NCBI GenBank assembly: GCA_020051695.1
Contig: JAGVQM010000006.1
Coordinates: 1 to 64,000, forward strand
Direction of reading: 5' to 3'
Origin: Candidatus Zixiibacteriota bacterium
GTDB taxonomy: Bacteria > Zixibacteria > MSB-5A5 > WJJR01 > JAJRUJ01
DNA length: 64,000 bases
Part shown: piece after piece, positions 35,211-51,417 of the stretch
How positions within the stretch are numbered: the first letter of the stretch is position 1
Layout of the letters: each line of letters opens with the position of its first letter
Translations under genes and position numbers: made by a program
The notes under the pieces: generated by a model
What the model was told of the DNA's origin: nothing
Seen by the model: the letters and a program-made list of their open reading frames with translations, nothing else
Database searches by the model: none

Positions 35211-36608
35211 ATGGATAAGCATCAGCGAACAATTCAAAAAACAACCGAATTCTCGGGTATCGGCCTGCATACCGGCCGGCCATGCACCATTGTCTTCCAC
35301 CCGGCCCCGGCGGGGCGGGGCATACGCTTCCAGGTGACCGTCGACGGCCAATCCGATGAAATAATTCCGGATATCGACAAAGTCTCCGATGTGAATCGGG
35401 GCACATCGATTTCGGGCAGCAAGTTCCAGATTCATACCGTGGAGCATGTGCTGGCCGCTTTGGCCGGGCTGGAAATCGACAATGTTATCTGCCAGATGGA
35501 CAATTTCGAGCCGCCGGTGGGGGATGGGTCGGCCAAACCGTTCGTTGACGTGCTGACCGAGGCGGGTTTGGAAAAGCAGGATCAGTTGAAAAATTATATT
35601 GAGATCGACGAACCTGTGGTGTATTCCGAACCGGAACGCAAGGTGGATATCATTGTCCTGCCCTCGGAAGCGTTTCGCGTCACGTTCATGGTCGATTACC
35701 AGAACCCGGCGCTGGGCACGCAATACACGTCGCTGGTTTCGCTGGCGGATGAGTTTGCCGCGGAATTTGCCCCCGCCCGTACGTTTTGTTTTTTGCACGA
35801 AGTGGAATTTTTGTACAAGGAGGGGTTGATCAAAGGGGGGCGGTTGGACAATGCCGTGGTGATCACCGACCACGGGATGACCCAGGAGGATGTCGACCGC
35901 CTGAAAAAAATGCTGCAGTATCCCGGCGAGGTCCCCCTGGGCAAGACCGGTATTCTCAACGACACTCCGGTGAGGTTTCACAACGAACCCGTGCGGCACA
36001 AGGTTGTCGATTTGATCGGCGATTTGTTTCTTTTAGGCCGGCCGCTGAAAGCCCATGTCCTGGCCGGGCGCTCGGGCCACAAGGCCAATATCGAGATTGC
36101 CAAAAAGATCCGGGCCCAGGTGCAGAAAAAGGAAATCTCGCGGAAATATTCGACCCTCACCTCGACCGCAGGGCTGGTCCTCGATGCCCGCGCGATTGAG
36201 AAAATCATGCCGCATCGCTATCCGATGCTCTTGATTGACCGGGTCATCGATCTGGTCCCCGGTAAGACCGTAGTAGCGATCAAAAACGTGACTATTAATG
36301 AGCAGTTTTTTACCGGGCATTTTCCGGGACACCCGATCATGCCCGGCGTGCTGGTGGTGGAGGCCATGGCGCAGGCCGGGGGGATACTGCTGTTAAACGC
36401 CGTAGAAAACCCCGAATCAAAGGTTGTTTATTTCCTGGGTATCGACGGCGTGCGGTTCCGCAAACCGGTCACCCCCGGCGACCAGTTGCGCTTCGAGTTG
36501 GAGATGATCTCCTTCCGCCGCTCGACCTGCAAGATGGCGGGTAAGGCGTTCGTGGGAGATACGCTGGTCACCGAAGCCACACTGATGGCCGCGGTAGTGG
36601 AGAAATAA
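35211..36608 (+). CDS. lpxC-fabZ: LpxC-FabZ fusion: UDP-3-O-acyl-GlcNAc deacetylase / hydroxyacyl-ACP dehydratase
   Basis: This 465-residue protein joins two enzymes. The LpxC part (about 1-310) commits UDP-acylGlcNAc to lipid A. It has HTVEH with E78 and zinc ligand H79, and RHKVVD with H263 and D267 as the other zinc ligands. The FabZ part (about 320-465) dehydrates 3-hydroxyacyl-ACP and starts at IEKIMPHRYPMLLIDRV. Its catalytic H370 and E384 lie in GHFPGHPIMPG and VVEAMAQ. Both active sites look intact. The fusion is known from Bacteroidetes and relatives. It balances use of 3-hydroxyacyl-ACP between lipid A and phospholipids. Confidence 0.96.
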   Translation: MDKHQRTIQKTTEFSGIGLHTGRPCTIVFHPAPAGRGIRFQVTVDGQSDEIIPDIDKVSDVNRGTSISGSKFQIHTVEHVLAALAGLEIDNVICQMDNFEPPVGDGSAKPFVDVLTEAGLEKQDQLKNYIEIDEPVVYSEPERKVDIIVLPSEAFRVTFMVDYQNPALGTQYTSLVSLADEFAAEFAPARTFCFLHEVEFLYKEGLIKGGRLDNAVVITDHGMTQEDVDRLKKMLQYPGEVPLGKTGILNDTPVRFHNEPVRHKVVDLIGDLFLLGRPLKAHVLAGRSGHKANIEIAKKIRAQVQKKEISRKYSTLTSTAGLVLDARAIEKIMPHRYPMLLIDRVIDLVPGKTVVAIKNVTINEQFFTGHFPGHPIMPGVLVVEAMAQAGGILLLNAVENPESKVVYFLGIDGVRFRKPVTPGDQLRFELEMISFRRSTCKMAGKAFVGDTLVTEATLMAAVVEK

Positions 36609-46130: not shown

Positions 46131-47000
46131 ATGATTTTGCGGCACGGAAAGATGCCTCAGGTTTCGAGCGTACCGTTTGCGCTATTACTGATTTTTTTCG
46201 CTCTCATCCTGCCCAGTGAAGCCGCCGCCGCCGACTGGTACGCCGCCGAACGAACACCGGAATTGGCAGCGGTCATTATTTGCGCTGCGGCGGTGCTGGT
46301 GTCGGTGTATTTGGCCCGGGGGCGGCGGTTTTATGTCCGGCCGTTGCCCGGAGTGCAGGCAATCGATGATGCGCTGGGCCGCGCGACGGAAATGGGGGCG
46401 CCGGTCATGTATCTCACCGGCTGGGGCGGCGATCTGGCCCGGCCGACCACCATGGCTTCGCTGACGATTTTATCTCATGTCGCCCGGCGCACTGCTGCTT
46501 TCGGGACACCGATTTTATTTCCCTCGCATGACCCGGTGGTGGCCTCGGCGGCGCAGGATACGATTCAACAAGGGTATGCGGCCGGCAAGCGGCCGGAGTT
46601 GTACAATAGTTCCGATGTTGCGTTTGTCACCCAGTCGCAGTTGGGGTATGCTGCCGCAGTAGACGGGATCATGTCCCGCCGTAAGCCGGGAGCGGTGTTT
46701 CTGCTGGGGTCGTTCGAGGGCGAGGCGTTGATTTTGGCCGAGACCGCACACAATGTTGGCGCGGTGCAAATCTCGGGTACCGATTCGACGATCCAGCTTT
46801 CGTTTTTTCTGGTGGCTTGCGACTATACGTTAATCGGCGAGGAACTCTTTGCCGCCTCGGGGTATTTGTCCGGTGACCCGCTGATCCTGGGGGCGGTCCG
46901 GGGGCAGGACATTTTGAAAATTATCATCGTTGCCGTCTTGCTCATCGGGACTGTGCTGGGGCTGTTGCAGATACATGTCTTTGCCGAATGGTTCGGGTAG
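46131..47000 (+). CDS. Membrane protein of unknown function, possibly DUF6754
   Basis: The 289-residue protein has an N-terminal hydrophobic segment (about 14-34), a second at 44-60 and a third near the C-terminus (about 262-281). The large central domain is Ser/Thr- and Gly-rich. It contains MYLTGWGGDLARPTTMASL, TPILFPSHDPVVAS and VFLLGSFEGEALILAE. From memory it resembles the uncharacterised DUF6754 family; I could not check this. An alternative start is ATG 46152. It heads a four-gene operon of membrane proteins. I cannot name a substrate or activity. Confidence 0.75.
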   Translation: MILRHGKMPQVSSVPFALLLIFFALILPSEAAAADWYAAERTPELAAVIICAAAVLVSVYLARGRRFYVRPLPGVQAIDDALGRATEMGAPVMYLTGWGGDLARPTTMASLTILSHVARRTAAFGTPILFPSHDPVVASAAQDTIQQGYAAGKRPELYNSSDVAFVTQSQLGYAAAVDGIMSRRKPGAVFLLGSFEGEALILAETAHNVGAVQISGTDSTIQLSFFLVACDYTLIGEELFAASGYLSGDPLILGAVRGQDILKIIIVAVLLIGTVLGLLQIHVFAEWFG

Positions 47001-47010
47001 GGGAGAGATT

Positions 47011-47637
47011 GTGTTACGCAAAATTCCTGTGATGGTCTGCGCCGTGTGCGGCGTGTTCATGGCGGCGCAGTATTTCATTGTTTCCGGCCCCGTCTCACAA
47101 TTGTACGGCACAGTCCTGGATTGGATGCAGATTATCTTTGTCTGCGCCCTGTTGGTCGGCATTTTGCATGTCATTACTCGGCAAATCAAAAATATCTCGC
47201 GCCCTGGTCCGGAACGGTGGTACGCCATGATCGCCTTGTTCGGCATCGCGCTGATGGTGGTGTTGGGCTTCGGCTGGGGTATCTCGCGCGGGTCGCCGTT
47301 TTTGTGGGTGTTCGATCATGTTCAGGCGCCGATGCAGACAACAGTCTTTTCACTGTTGGCATTTTATGTTGCCTCGGCGGCATACCGTGGTTTCCGCGCG
47401 CGGCATGCCGAATCGGCGGTGCTGGTACTGGCGGCGCTGATTGTTCTGCTGGGCCGGGTGCCGGTGGGGGAAATAATCTCACCGTATGTGCCTCAAACCG
47501 TAAGCTGGGTCCTGAACGTGCCCGCGGTGGCGGCCAAACGCGCAATTTTAATCGGCATCGGCCTGGGCATGACCGCCACGGCGATTAAAGTCATCGCCGG
47601 AATGGAACGCACCTATCTGGGGAGTGGGGGACGATGA
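47011..47637 (+). CDS. Polytopic membrane protein of unknown function
   Basis: From the GTG at 47011 (behind GGGGAGAG) the protein has 208 residues and about six membrane segments (near 5-24, 37-56, 72-91, 107-126, 133-150, 179-200). No family motif is recognised. It begins 10 bases after the previous gene and overlaps the next by 4 bases, so it belongs to the same unit. The open frame upstream of 47011 overlaps the first gene and is not used. Confidence 0.7.
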   Translation: MLRKIPVMVCAVCGVFMAAQYFIVSGPVSQLYGTVLDWMQIIFVCALLVGILHVITRQIKNISRPGPERWYAMIALFGIALMVVLGFGWGISRGSPFLWVFDHVQAPMQTTVFSLLAFYVASAAYRGFRARHAESAVLVLAALIVLLGRVPVGEIISPYVPQTVSWVLNVPAVAAKRAILIGIGLGMTATAIKVIAGMERTYLGSGGR

Positions 47638-48461
47638 AGCTCGATCGCCGCATCATCTTTATGATCGTCGCGCTGGCGGTGGTTGTCCCCCTGCTGTTCC
47701 CGTTGGGCCTGCCGGTGGCGGTGACCGATGAAACCCGGGCGGTTTACGAACGGCTGGAGCGGCTGGAGCAGGGATCGGTGGTAATGCTGTCGTTCGACCA
47801 TGAGGCGTCATCATTGCCCGAAGTCCGGCCACTGGCCGAGGCCATCCTTAATCATTGTTTCCGGCGCAACATTCGGGTCGTCGGGCTGGCGTTATTTGCC
47901 GAAGGCGCCGCAGTCGGTTACGATATTCTGCATGATCTCGCGGCCCGGCATGATAAACAATACGGCCATGATTATGCCTACCTCGGGTATCGGCCCCAAT
48001 ATACGGCGGCAATTTTGGGAATGGGGGAATCGATCCGGGAAGTCTTTCCCACCGATTACGATGACACGCCCTATGATGATATCCCGCTGCTGCGCGAGAT
48101 ACGCAATTACGGCGATATCGGATTGGTGGTCTCGGTGGCCGATGGTTCTCTGCCGACCTACTGGGTGGAGTATGCGCAGGCGCGTTACGGCCAGGAGATC
48201 ATTGCGGCATTGACCGCGGTGATGGTCACGGCCTATGCGCCGTATGTCGATGCCGGGCAGATCAGCGGTGTCCTCGGCGGATTGAAAGGCGCGGCCGAAT
48301 ACGAAATACTGCTTGGCCGTCATGCGGCCGGGAAACGGGGAATGGACGCGCAATCACTGGCCCATTTGTCCATCGCGGTGATGATTGTAATCGGCAACGT
48401 TGTGGCCTTCGGGCTGCGCCGGAAAAACGAGACAACCGAAGCCGGGGGACACTCATCATGA
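47634..48461 (+). CDS. Protein with two terminal membrane segments, unknown function
   Basis: The 275-residue protein has a hydrophobic N-terminal anchor (about 7-28) and a C-terminal membrane segment (about 247-264). Between them is a soluble domain of about 215 residues. This includes VVMLSFDHEASSLPEVRP and DYAYLGYRPQYTAAILGMG, and ends before a helix with GGLKGAAEYEILLG. The layout mirrors the first gene of the operon. It overlaps the genes on both sides by 4 bases. Confidence 0.7.
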   Translation: MKLDRRIIFMIVALAVVVPLLFPLGLPVAVTDETRAVYERLERLEQGSVVMLSFDHEASSLPEVRPLAEAILNHCFRRNIRVVGLALFAEGAAVGYDILHDLAARHDKQYGHDYAYLGYRPQYTAAILGMGESIREVFPTDYDDTPYDDIPLLREIRNYGDIGLVVSVADGSLPTYWVEYAQARYGQEIIAALTAVMVTAYAPYVDAGQISGVLGGLKGAAEYEILLGRHAAGKRGMDAQSLAHLSIAVMIVIGNVVAFGLRRKNETTEAGGHSS

Positions 48462-49057
48462 GCGACATCGGCATTTGGATCACGGCCCTGGCGACGCTTG
48501 CGATTTATTCGTTCCTGTACCGCGATAACCCCTTTTATAAGGCGGCGGAATACTTGTTGATCGGGTTGACGGTCGGCTATTCGCTGGTGATTTCGGTCAA
48601 AACCGTGCTCTGGCCGGGGCTGGTGCTGCCGTTGTTGGGCGGGGACACGGCCAAAATAATCCCCCTGGTTTTGGGGGGACTGATGTTTATCCGACTGGTC
48701 CCCAAACTCGGCGGATGGTCGCGGATCCCGCTGGCGGTGTATGTCGGGGCGGGAGCGGGCGTGTCGATCCCGGCGATGCTCAAAGCGCGGGTGCTGCAGC
48801 AAATGGGGGCGACGATGTCCAATGTCACTACTATCAGCGGGGTGATCATGCTGGTCGGGGTGATCACCACAATTTTATATTTTTATTTTTCTCGCGAACA
48901 GAAGGGTTTGCTGCAGCCGGTTGCCAAAATCGGTACATATTATATGATGATCTTTTTTGGGGCGACGTTCGGCTATACGGTCATGTCGCGGGTTTCGCTG
49001 TTGATTGGGCGGATGGAGTTTTTGCTGGGGGACTGGCTGCGGCTGATTGCCCGGTGA
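48458..49057 (+). CDS. Polytopic membrane protein of unknown function
   Basis: The 199-residue protein is almost entirely hydrophobic, with about seven membrane segments. A short cytoplasmic stretch (FSREQKGLLQPVAKIG) precedes the last pair. No family is recognised. It is the last gene of the four overlapping membrane-protein genes. The next gene starts 32 bases later but differs in base composition. Confidence 0.7.
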   Translation: MSDIGIWITALATLAIYSFLYRDNPFYKAAEYLLIGLTVGYSLVISVKTVLWPGLVLPLLGGDTAKIIPLVLGGLMFIRLVPKLGGWSRIPLAVYVGAGAGVSIPAMLKARVLQQMGATMSNVTTISGVIMLVGVITTILYFYFSREQKGLLQPVAKIGTYYMMIFFGATFGYTVMSRVSLLIGRMEFLLGDWLRLIAR

Positions 49058-49089
49058 TGTGAAAAGGATAAAAAGTGGAGGGCCGCAAG

Positions 49090-49983
49090 ATGATGACGAA
49101 AACATATGAGATTATAGTTATTATTGTTTCTTCCACAGTTCTCTTCACGGGATGTATTTCGTACTATCGGCCCGACCCCTTTGCCGGGATCGATTTTGTT
49201 CGGAACGAACGCCGTGCTACTTTTGACATCGCCCTGAGCCGGTATCAGGCAGATGGTTATTTTGACGGCGAGGGCACAACACCGCATACCAGCCGTAGCG
49301 CGGCCCCAGAATCAAAATTTATCCGCTCCGATGTTGTCATCAGATCGAAGGTCCATCTTCGAGATTGGCTTGGCCTCGTGGTCGTTTTGCCCATTTCACA
49401 TATATTTCAACGGGGATACAAATATCATGATGAATCCAAAGACTGGCGCGTGGAACGCGTGTGGCTCGGTACCGGTCTCACTCCGGGAAGGAAATATAGG
49501 AACCTGTCGGTCTTGTTCGGATTGGGAATCCCCTTGAAGGGCGATCTGCAATCGCTGCGGTCTATTGCCCCGGACCATGATGCTTCGACTCGCTGGACGC
49601 TACAGGCCATTTTCTCCAACGGGCTTCCCTCTGGGCATTTTGGCTTTTATGTGCGTTTGGGGTTGGGCGAATATCTGAATGTGAAGAATGATCAACTTCA
49701 TGGCATTTCCGAATACCCCGGCGAACTGCAATTCTTACTTCCCTTTGAGAAACGGTTTTCTTTGGGACTATATGCCGATGCAAGGTTTACTTTGTTAGGG
49801 TATAAAGGTCGCAACGGGACGCAAAGTCGCGATGTCATTGGCGTGGGCCCGGTGCTTCTCTGGCAGCTTTATGAGGAGTGGCGGTTGACGGCGAATTATC
49901 GCAAGGAAATCATTGGATTCAAAACTAGTGCCGGTTCGTCCTGGCGTATTGGACTGGCCTACGATTTCACTTTGAAAAGATAA
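49090..49983 (+). CDS. Putative lipoprotein, beta-rich
   Basis: I do not recognise the family. The 297-residue protein starts with a signal sequence ending LFTGC, so C22 may be lipidated; Phe at the -3 position is unusual for a lipobox. The rest shows alternating polar and apolar residues with many Tyr, Gly and Arg, and the ending WRIGLAYDFTLKR. That final pattern is typical of outer-membrane barrels. The ATG at 49090 follows GGAGGG at 7 bases. Codons are clearly more AT-rich than in the neighbours, which suggests transfer or weak expression. Confidence 0.65.
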   Translation: MMTKTYEIIVIIVSSTVLFTGCISYYRPDPFAGIDFVRNERRATFDIALSRYQADGYFDGEGTTPHTSRSAAPESKFIRSDVVIRSKVHLRDWLGLVVVLPISHIFQRGYKYHDESKDWRVERVWLGTGLTPGRKYRNLSVLFGLGIPLKGDLQSLRSIAPDHDASTRWTLQAIFSNGLPSGHFGFYVRLGLGEYLNVKNDQLHGISEYPGELQFLLPFEKRFSLGLYADARFTLLGYKGRNGTQSRDVIGVGPVLLWQLYEEWRLTANYRKEIIGFKTSAGSSWRIGLAYDFTLKR

Positions 49984-50033
49984 CCGCCGGATCGGACACA
50001 AAATACATATTGGATTTGTATGAGAAGTATATA

Positions 50034-50234
50034 ATGATCAGCAGGACAGGAAACCATTCACTGAATATCGACGAAAAGTGCTGCCTCGCCTGCGGCGCCT
50101 GCGTGCCGGTATGCGCGTTCGATGCTATTTTCCTGCGGGGCTGGGGCATCGAAATTCTCGATGATGAGTGCACCCTCTGCGGTTTGTGCGTGCAGGTTTG
50201 CCCGACCGGGGCTTTGAATACCAATGAAGACTGA
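50034..50234 (+). CDS. Ferredoxin with two [4Fe-4S] motifs
   Basis: The 66-residue protein has two complete cluster motifs: C17, C20, C23, C27 and C46, C49, C52, C56. The first motif has Ala where Pro usually follows the fourth Cys. It carries low-potential electrons in the cytoplasm. It overlaps the following reductase gene by 11 bases, strong evidence that it is that enzyme's electron donor. The ATG at 50034 follows GAGAAG; an in-frame TTG at 50010 is another option. Confidence 0.88.
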   Translation: MISRTGNHSLNIDEKCCLACGACVPVCAFDAIFLRGWGIEILDDECTLCGLCVQVCPTGALNTNED

Positions 50235-51417
50235 TCATTCCTTTGATGCTGTCGTGATCGGCGCCGGGCCGGCCGGCTCACTTGCCGCTTATCAAATCGC
50301 GCGCGCAGGGTTCTCGGTTCTGCTGGTGGAAAAACATCCGGTTGTCGGGGTCCCGGTTTGCTGCGCGGAGGGGATCACAGTCGAGGGTCTCACAAAGGTT
50401 GTCCCGCTGGACCGCCGCTGGGTGTGCAGCGACATCTCCCGGATTACGCTGCATGGGCCCGACGGCACTGCGGTGGCCATTAATCACCCCGCTGCCGGAT
50501 ATATCCTCGACCGGACAATATTCGACCGCGACCTGGCCGCCCGCGCCGCCGCCGCCGGGGCCACACTCTGGGTGAACGCCGAGGCGGTGGGTATTGTTTC
50601 CGCAGACGGACAATTATTCGACCGGGTTATCGTAAGCCGCGGCGGCAGGACGGAATCCATTGGGTGCCGGATCATCATTGGTTGTGACGGCGTCGAATCA
50701 TTGGTCGGCCGCTGGGCCGGTATGGATACGCTGCTATTACCCGAAAACATGGATTCTGCGGCGCAAATTCTCTTGGGCGATCTGCGGGGTTTGGACCAGC
50801 ACCAGATGGAGTTTTTCATTTTGCCGGAATTGGCTCCCGGCGGGTATGTCTGGGTTTTTCCCAAGAGCCCGACGACAGCCAATGTCGGCCTGGGATATAC
50901 ACCGTCACTCGGTGACGGCCGGACGGCCCTGGCGCGGCTGAAATCATTTGTTGACGTGCGGTACAGTTCCGCCTCGAAGCTCGCGACAAACTGCGGCGGC
51001 ATCCCCGCGTTTCGCGGGCGGAAGATTATGACGAACAAGAATGTGTTGCTGGCCGGGGATGCCGCGCGGCTGTTGGATTCTCTTTCCGGTGCGGGGATCG
51101 CCAATGCGCTATTATCGGGCAAATATGCCGGGCAAACGGCGGCGGAATATCTCAACGCCGGAGCACCCCGGCTCGCAATGCTCAGACAATACCCCGAACG
51201 GTTCATGCGGGATAAGGGGCGTAACCTGCGGTATCTGTTATATGCCCGGCAGATATTTATGAAAATGTCCACGCAGGATTTCAACGATGTCGTGGTTTTT
51301 CTCAAGTCGGTTTTCGACGGCAAGACAATCCACGAGGTGGATGCGGTATCGATCATCAAGTCCATCCTGCGGGCCAAGCCGCGCCTGCTGACTCTGGCCC
51401 GGCACCTGTTCTGGTGA
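50224..51417 (+). CDS. Geranylgeranyl-reductase-family flavoprotein
   Basis: The 397-residue FAD protein has the dinucleotide motif GAGPAG (13-18) and the family element VGVPVCCAEG (41-50). It has RTIFDRDLAARAAAAGA, a WVFPKS segment, and the second FAD motif LLAGDAARLLDSLSGAGI. Relatives saturate isoprenoid double bonds: archaeal membrane lipids, chlorophyll phytyl chains or menaquinone tails. The overlapping ferredoxin gene matches the archaeal arrangement. The substrate here is unknown; menaquinone is the conservative guess. Some electron-transfer flavoproteins look similar. Confidence 0.82.
   Translation: MKTDHSFDAVVIGAGPAGSLAAYQIARAGFSVLLVEKHPVVGVPVCCAEGITVEGLTKVVPLDRRWVCSDISRITLHGPDGTAVAINHPAAGYILDRTIFDRDLAARAAAAGATLWVNAEAVGIVSADGQLFDRVIVSRGGRTESIGCRIIIGCDGVESLVGRWAGMDTLLLPENMDSAAQILLGDLRGLDQHQMEFFILPELAPGGYVWVFPKSPTTANVGLGYTPSLGDGRTALARLKSFVDVRYSSASKLATNCGGIPAFRGRKIMTNKNVLLAGDAARLLDSLSGAGIANALLSGKYAGQTAAEYLNAGAPRLAMLRQYPERFMRDKGRNLRYLLYARQIFMKMSTQDFNDVVVFLKSVFDGKTIHEVDAVSIIKSILRAKPRLLTLARHLFW

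Follow-up and report, generated by a model that had tools for sequence, protein, structure and literature searches.

The window, i.e. the whole stretch of 64,000 nucleotides of a Candidatus Zixiibacteriota genome that was analysed, carries four genes, here called A to D, with the following features (window coordinates):

46131..47000, + strand: gene A, DUF6754 membrane protein, 289 aa (Pfam PF20539, E=2.7e-92; invariant motifs over 43 homologues)
46347..46871, + strand: Rossmann-like soluble domain of A, residues 73-247, predicted cytoplasmic (AlphaFold model; K+R fractions)
47011..47637, + strand: gene B, about six helices, predicted N-in, 208 aa, GTG start (hydropathy and loop charge, 82-83 homologues; without family match)
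47634..48461, + strand: gene C, alpha/beta domain flanked by two terminal helices, 275 aa (AlphaFold pLDDT 93.8)
47727..48314, + strand: Rossmann-like soluble domain of C, residues 32-227, predicted extracytoplasmic (AlphaFold model; K+R fractions)
48458..49057, + strand: gene D, about six helices, predicted N-out, 199 aa (hydropathy and loop charge; without family match above cut-off)

The coupling of the four genes described in the first-pass annotation was read directly from the sequence: A ends at 47000 and the GTG start of B follows at 47011 after a 10-base spacing; the bases ATGA (47634-47637) are shared by B and C, and four bases (48458-48461) by C and D. Sequence reading likewise agreed that all four products are membrane proteins, and AlphaFold models and hydropathy bore out the earlier division into two proteins with a large domain between terminal helices (A and C) and two polytopic ones (B and D).

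Upstream of A lie lipid A genes named from their translations (lpxC-fabZ, lpxA, lpxB, waaA, lpxK and an lpxH-like phosphoesterase, the last also named by a Pfam Metallophos match), with guaA and a nadB-like gene between them and A. The head of this cluster appears, from its translation only, to be an lpxC-fabZ fusion (window 35211-36608). The view that the operon follows the lipid A genes without a link of function held up, since homologous operons adjoin unrelated genes (among them metK-/sahH-like genes and a sugar ABC transporter). Directly 3' of D lies a gene whose 302-aa product begins like a lipoprotein and has no Pfam match (49075-49983). At 50010-51417, a small dicluster ferredoxin gene overlaps the start of a gene of the geranylgeranyl-reductase family (GGR_cat, E=7e-15), whose members serve in the saturation of archaeal-type lipids.

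Searches with A against DUF6754 (PF20539) gave 309 bits at a cut-off of 27 and covered profile positions 2-257 of 257 (E=2.7e-92). This match is decisive, where the first-pass annotation had seen a weak resemblance, and A is by its sequence certainly a full-length DUF6754 member. The Pfam entry covers this one domain, gives no function and does not describe the other proteins of the system alongside. B, C and D matched no curated family above cut-off in Pfam, NCBIfam, PADLOC or PHROGs, neither singly nor as families, and sequence searches of A, B, C and D against PDB chains gave chance-level matches only. As stated earlier, no recognised catalytic motif is seen in A-D; nor was a transporter family recognisable in them. 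By any library searched, the ABCD system is thus no known transporter, secretion or defence system. The assignment to a known transporter or secretion complex that would have refuted the first-pass annotation was therefore not obtained. A literature search revealed no mention of DUF6754/PF20539 or of such a cluster, with most subscription journals lying outside the search and an earlier description therefore possible.

AlphaFold models of A and C (mean pLDDT 86.7 and 93.8) both showed a large alpha/beta domain between terminal helices. The two soluble domains are predicted to be Rossmann-like, their six strands following one another in a similar way. Foldseek searches with A and C against the PDB, and with C also against BFVD, returned unspecific Rossmann-type matches only, and comparison with solved Rossmann families such as SLOG/LOG gave weak, mixed matches with query TM-scores of at most 0.37. 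Profile comparison revealed no homology between A and C or between B and D; the A and C models are nonetheless similar in the order of their strands and helices.

In B and in D, judged over about 80 homologues, the hydrophobic segments number about six and the loops between them alternate in charge. Fractions of lysine and arginine (K+R), computed over 78-87 homologues per protein, were for B 0.32 at the N-terminus, 0.05, 0.24, 0.04, 0.31 and 0.03 in the successive loops and 0.14 at the C-terminus, which predicts a six-helix protein with its N-terminus inside. The corresponding values for D (0.03; 0.13, 0.07, 0.22, 0.06, 0.17; 0.10) predict six helices with the N-terminus outside, a topology opposite to that of B. 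In C, the K+R fraction is high before TM1 (0.32) and after TM2 (0.46), and its domain is therefore predicted to be extracytoplasmic. In A, it is high just after TM1 (0.28) and low after the last helix (0.06), so that the A domain is predicted to be cytoplasmic; some A proteins carry extracytoplasmic N-terminal extensions. The inner loops of B and D hold several conserved motifs, predicted to lie on the same side as the A domain. Two further proteins described below, E and F, would also have to be on this side.

The source genome contains five copies each of A and C, in A-B-C-D operons. The same order recurs in Zixibacteria, Planctomycetota, Eisenbacteria, WOR-3, Cloacimonadota and hot-spring archaea, with up to seven paralogous ABCD copies per genome, and this recurrence across phyla and archaea is far beyond a chance arrangement. 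DUF6754 was found in all 98 related genomes (one to six copies each), in 76 of 294 Planctomycetota genomes, in none of 14 well-known control genomes and, above cut-off, in six of 300 genomes of a Culexarchaeum's phylum (three to seven copies each). Relatives of C were located at 44 loci in named genomes. The C of the window groups most closely with homologues from Candidatus Zixiibacteriota, in a clade of 10 with support of 100/100, in agreement with the origin of the genome from a Zixibacterium. In the C tree, which has some long branches and unsure deep joins, the five copies of the source genome are spread over different clades in which other genomes are also represented, and archaeal copies mostly pair between two archaeal genomes. 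The paralogues therefore appear to be old.

The A-B-C-D order is kept in nearly all loci of sufficient length, and the four genes are in this respect conserved together, a point on which the first-pass annotation had let its reading depend. The joint conservation is incomplete: C occurs without A, B and D nearby at L009:772-1599, L013:5995-6810 and L014:3274-4170, all three belonging to the clade of the window's own C, and in some Planctomycetota A is present without C and D. Genes resembling ATP synthase subunits lie close to the lone C in L013 and L014. Other neighbours were seen beside some copies, such as ExbB/ExbD-like genes near F-E-A-B-C-D in Planctomycetota (L126, L127, L128, L131) and near ABCD in one Cloacimonadota and one WOR-3 genome (L025, L041), and a lipoate-ligase-like gene 3' of the ABCD operon in three genomes (L021, L039, L041). 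These genes, together with the metK/sahH-like and sugar ABC transporter genes, were rejected as partners, being present with some copies only. Archaeal neighbourhoods showed no steady partner besides F and E.

F is a predicted ATPase of about 600 aa with ASKHA fold, belonging to the GlmL/MutL family (PF13941; 429 bits, E=1.6e-128 in the source genome, 427.8 bits in L016). Its motifs DCGSTTTK and DIGGATTD are kept from bacteria to archaea, between which F proteins are 55-80% identical. F shares the whole span of the family (PF13941; NF040745, NF040744, TIGR01319) and its ASKHA-type motifs; it differs from GlmL proper in an added C-terminal region, in being encoded with E and A-D, and in scoring below the NCBIfam equivalog and subfamily cut-offs (231.5 vs 475, 215.8 vs 600 and 174.1 vs 204). 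E has about 375 aa and combines an RnfC_N/NQRA_N-like barrel-sandwich domain with an undescribed middle part. Among 28 E members, 23 matched RnfC_N (E<=0.1, best 1.3e-6), 11 NQRA_N and nine KOW. Profiles of E and of F against the PDB found no relative, and profile comparison revealed no homology of E to A or to C.

The source genome has F and E once each, as a pair on a contig other than that of the window and without linkage to any of the five ABCD copies. Contiguous F-E-A-B-C-D loci exist in an archaeon (L147), Zixibacteria (L149), Eisenbacteria (L153), WOR-3 (L154) and Planctomycetota (L125-L128, L131, L135, L139, L140, L143); in a further Planctomycetota locus (L134) the order is the same, small open reading frames having been called in the E-A interval. 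The undescribed membrane operon proposed in the first-pass annotation stands, is conserved as a set across phyla and archaea, and has to be enlarged to a unit of six genes, of which F and E had been missed, with five copies of the four-gene part in this genome. Loci with E-A or F-E-A without C and D (L129, L132, L141) suggest that E contacts A. Single-chain F+E paralogues, in which a GlmL/MutL-like ATPase part is joined to an E-like barrel-sandwich part (L159:4968-7808, L160:2779-5946), support a joint action of F and E; the L160 protein has an extra N-terminal zinc-ribbon match. Seeming F-E fusions in the Planctomycetota loci L150-L152, where long open frames lie around E, were discarded as overlapping frames.

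E was found in 92 of the 98 relatives with one full copy each, further matches being fragments or the divergent F+E fusion paralogue, and in all 13 ABCD-bearing genomes checked individually. E is thus single-copy, whereas ABCD is multi-copy. Among 294 Planctomycetota genomes, 68 have both E and A, eight A only, two E only and 216 neither (Fisher p=7e-55); some of the eight A-only genomes may be incomplete. In 47 of the 68 genomes with both, the gene immediately 5' of A on the same strand is E. In archaea, E and A occur in the identical six of 300 genomes (Fisher p=1e-12). Both p-values overstate independence, the genomes being related; the pattern is seen in two domains of life.

The best reading of these data is that A-D supply the membrane portion of a six-gene system, F-E-A-B-C-D, which is ancient and undescribed and consists of a membrane complex and a predicted cytoplasmic ATPase module. 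We consider it about evenly balanced whether ABCD forms an inner-membrane core and the single-copy FE pair an ATPase module serving several such cores. In such an arrangement, B and D would be six-helix integral proteins of opposite orientation within the core, with the Rossmann-like domain of A on the cytoplasmic face and that of C on the outer face. F and E would form the cytoplasmic module and dock on A, most likely through E. ATP use by this module would bring about a conformational change in the core made with B and D, while C would handle a ligand outside. Several paralogous ABCD cores might share one FE module while differing in the substrate or signal to which each is adapted. Speaking against this arrangement are the separation of FE from ABCD in the source genome, the three solitary C genes and the eight Planctomycetota with A but no E. 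That the system represents a new class of energy-coupled membrane machine, in which an ASKHA-fold ATPase and a barrel-sandwich adaptor (FE) power several interchangeable ABCD cores in bacteria and archaea, and which is universal in the Zixibacteria-like genomes sampled, is a more tentative proposal. Group II ECF transporters, in which one shared energising module serves several membrane modules, offer a likeness by analogy in the shared energiser only; F is not an ABC ATPase, and none of A-F matched an ABC or ECF family.

The paired alpha/beta domains predicted on opposite faces of the membrane would also fit a signalling or sensing complex, in which ligand binding by C outside is relayed across the membrane by B and D, the A domain reports to the FE ATPase inside and no substrate is moved. 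That genomes have numerous paralogues with a single cytoplasmic module shared among them, and that some A proteins have extracytoplasmic N-terminal extensions, points the same way. No kinase, cyclase or other output domain was found, however, and two polytopic six-helix subunits would seem to exceed the needs of a sensor. We regard signalling as unlikely, though worth serious consideration, and slightly favour transport because of the two polytopic subunits. The affiliation of F with the GlmL/MutL family raises another option, namely that ABCD is a scaffold or assembly complex and FE a reactivase or chaperone-type ATPase whose task is the repair or loading of a cofactor or client and not the powering of transport. 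GlmL is supposed to act in this way, and related ASKHA reactivases have been shown to do so; the fused F+E form has EutA-type similarity. Yet no cobalamin enzyme adjoins F, E or A-D in the loci read, and FE is linked to membrane genes. This option is quite improbable.

A redox-driven complex related to Rnf/Nqr, with E as RnfC/NqrA-like subunit and B and D as a pair of opposite topology like RnfA/RnfE, would account for the RnfC_N and NQRA_N matches in E and for the predicted orientations of the two six-helix proteins. The likeness ends with these matches and this predicted pair: a predicted ATPase is present, F being an ASKHA and not a redox protein, and B, C and D contain no conserved cysteine. 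Neither RnfA/RnfE-type membrane subunits nor an RnfG/NqrC-type FMN subunit were recognised, as B, C and D have no profile similarity to the E. coli Rsx proteins RsxA, RsxE and RsxG and C gave no alignment to RsxG. With RsxC, hhalign aligned E over no more than 56 columns; these belong to the barrel-sandwich part, whose fold many proteins share. An Rnf/Nqr relationship is therefore largely refuted and very improbable.

For the proposed six-gene system, the presence in several copies per genome, throughout whole lineages and in bacteria and archaea, with a conserved predicted ATPase and no description found, suggests a probably basic role. The system is also carried by several Planctomycetota whose genomes are single contigs of 4-8 Mb, and may thus occur in organisms that can be cultured. 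Through the link predicted between FE and A-D, the families B, C, D and E, which lack any annotation, would become open to direct experiment.
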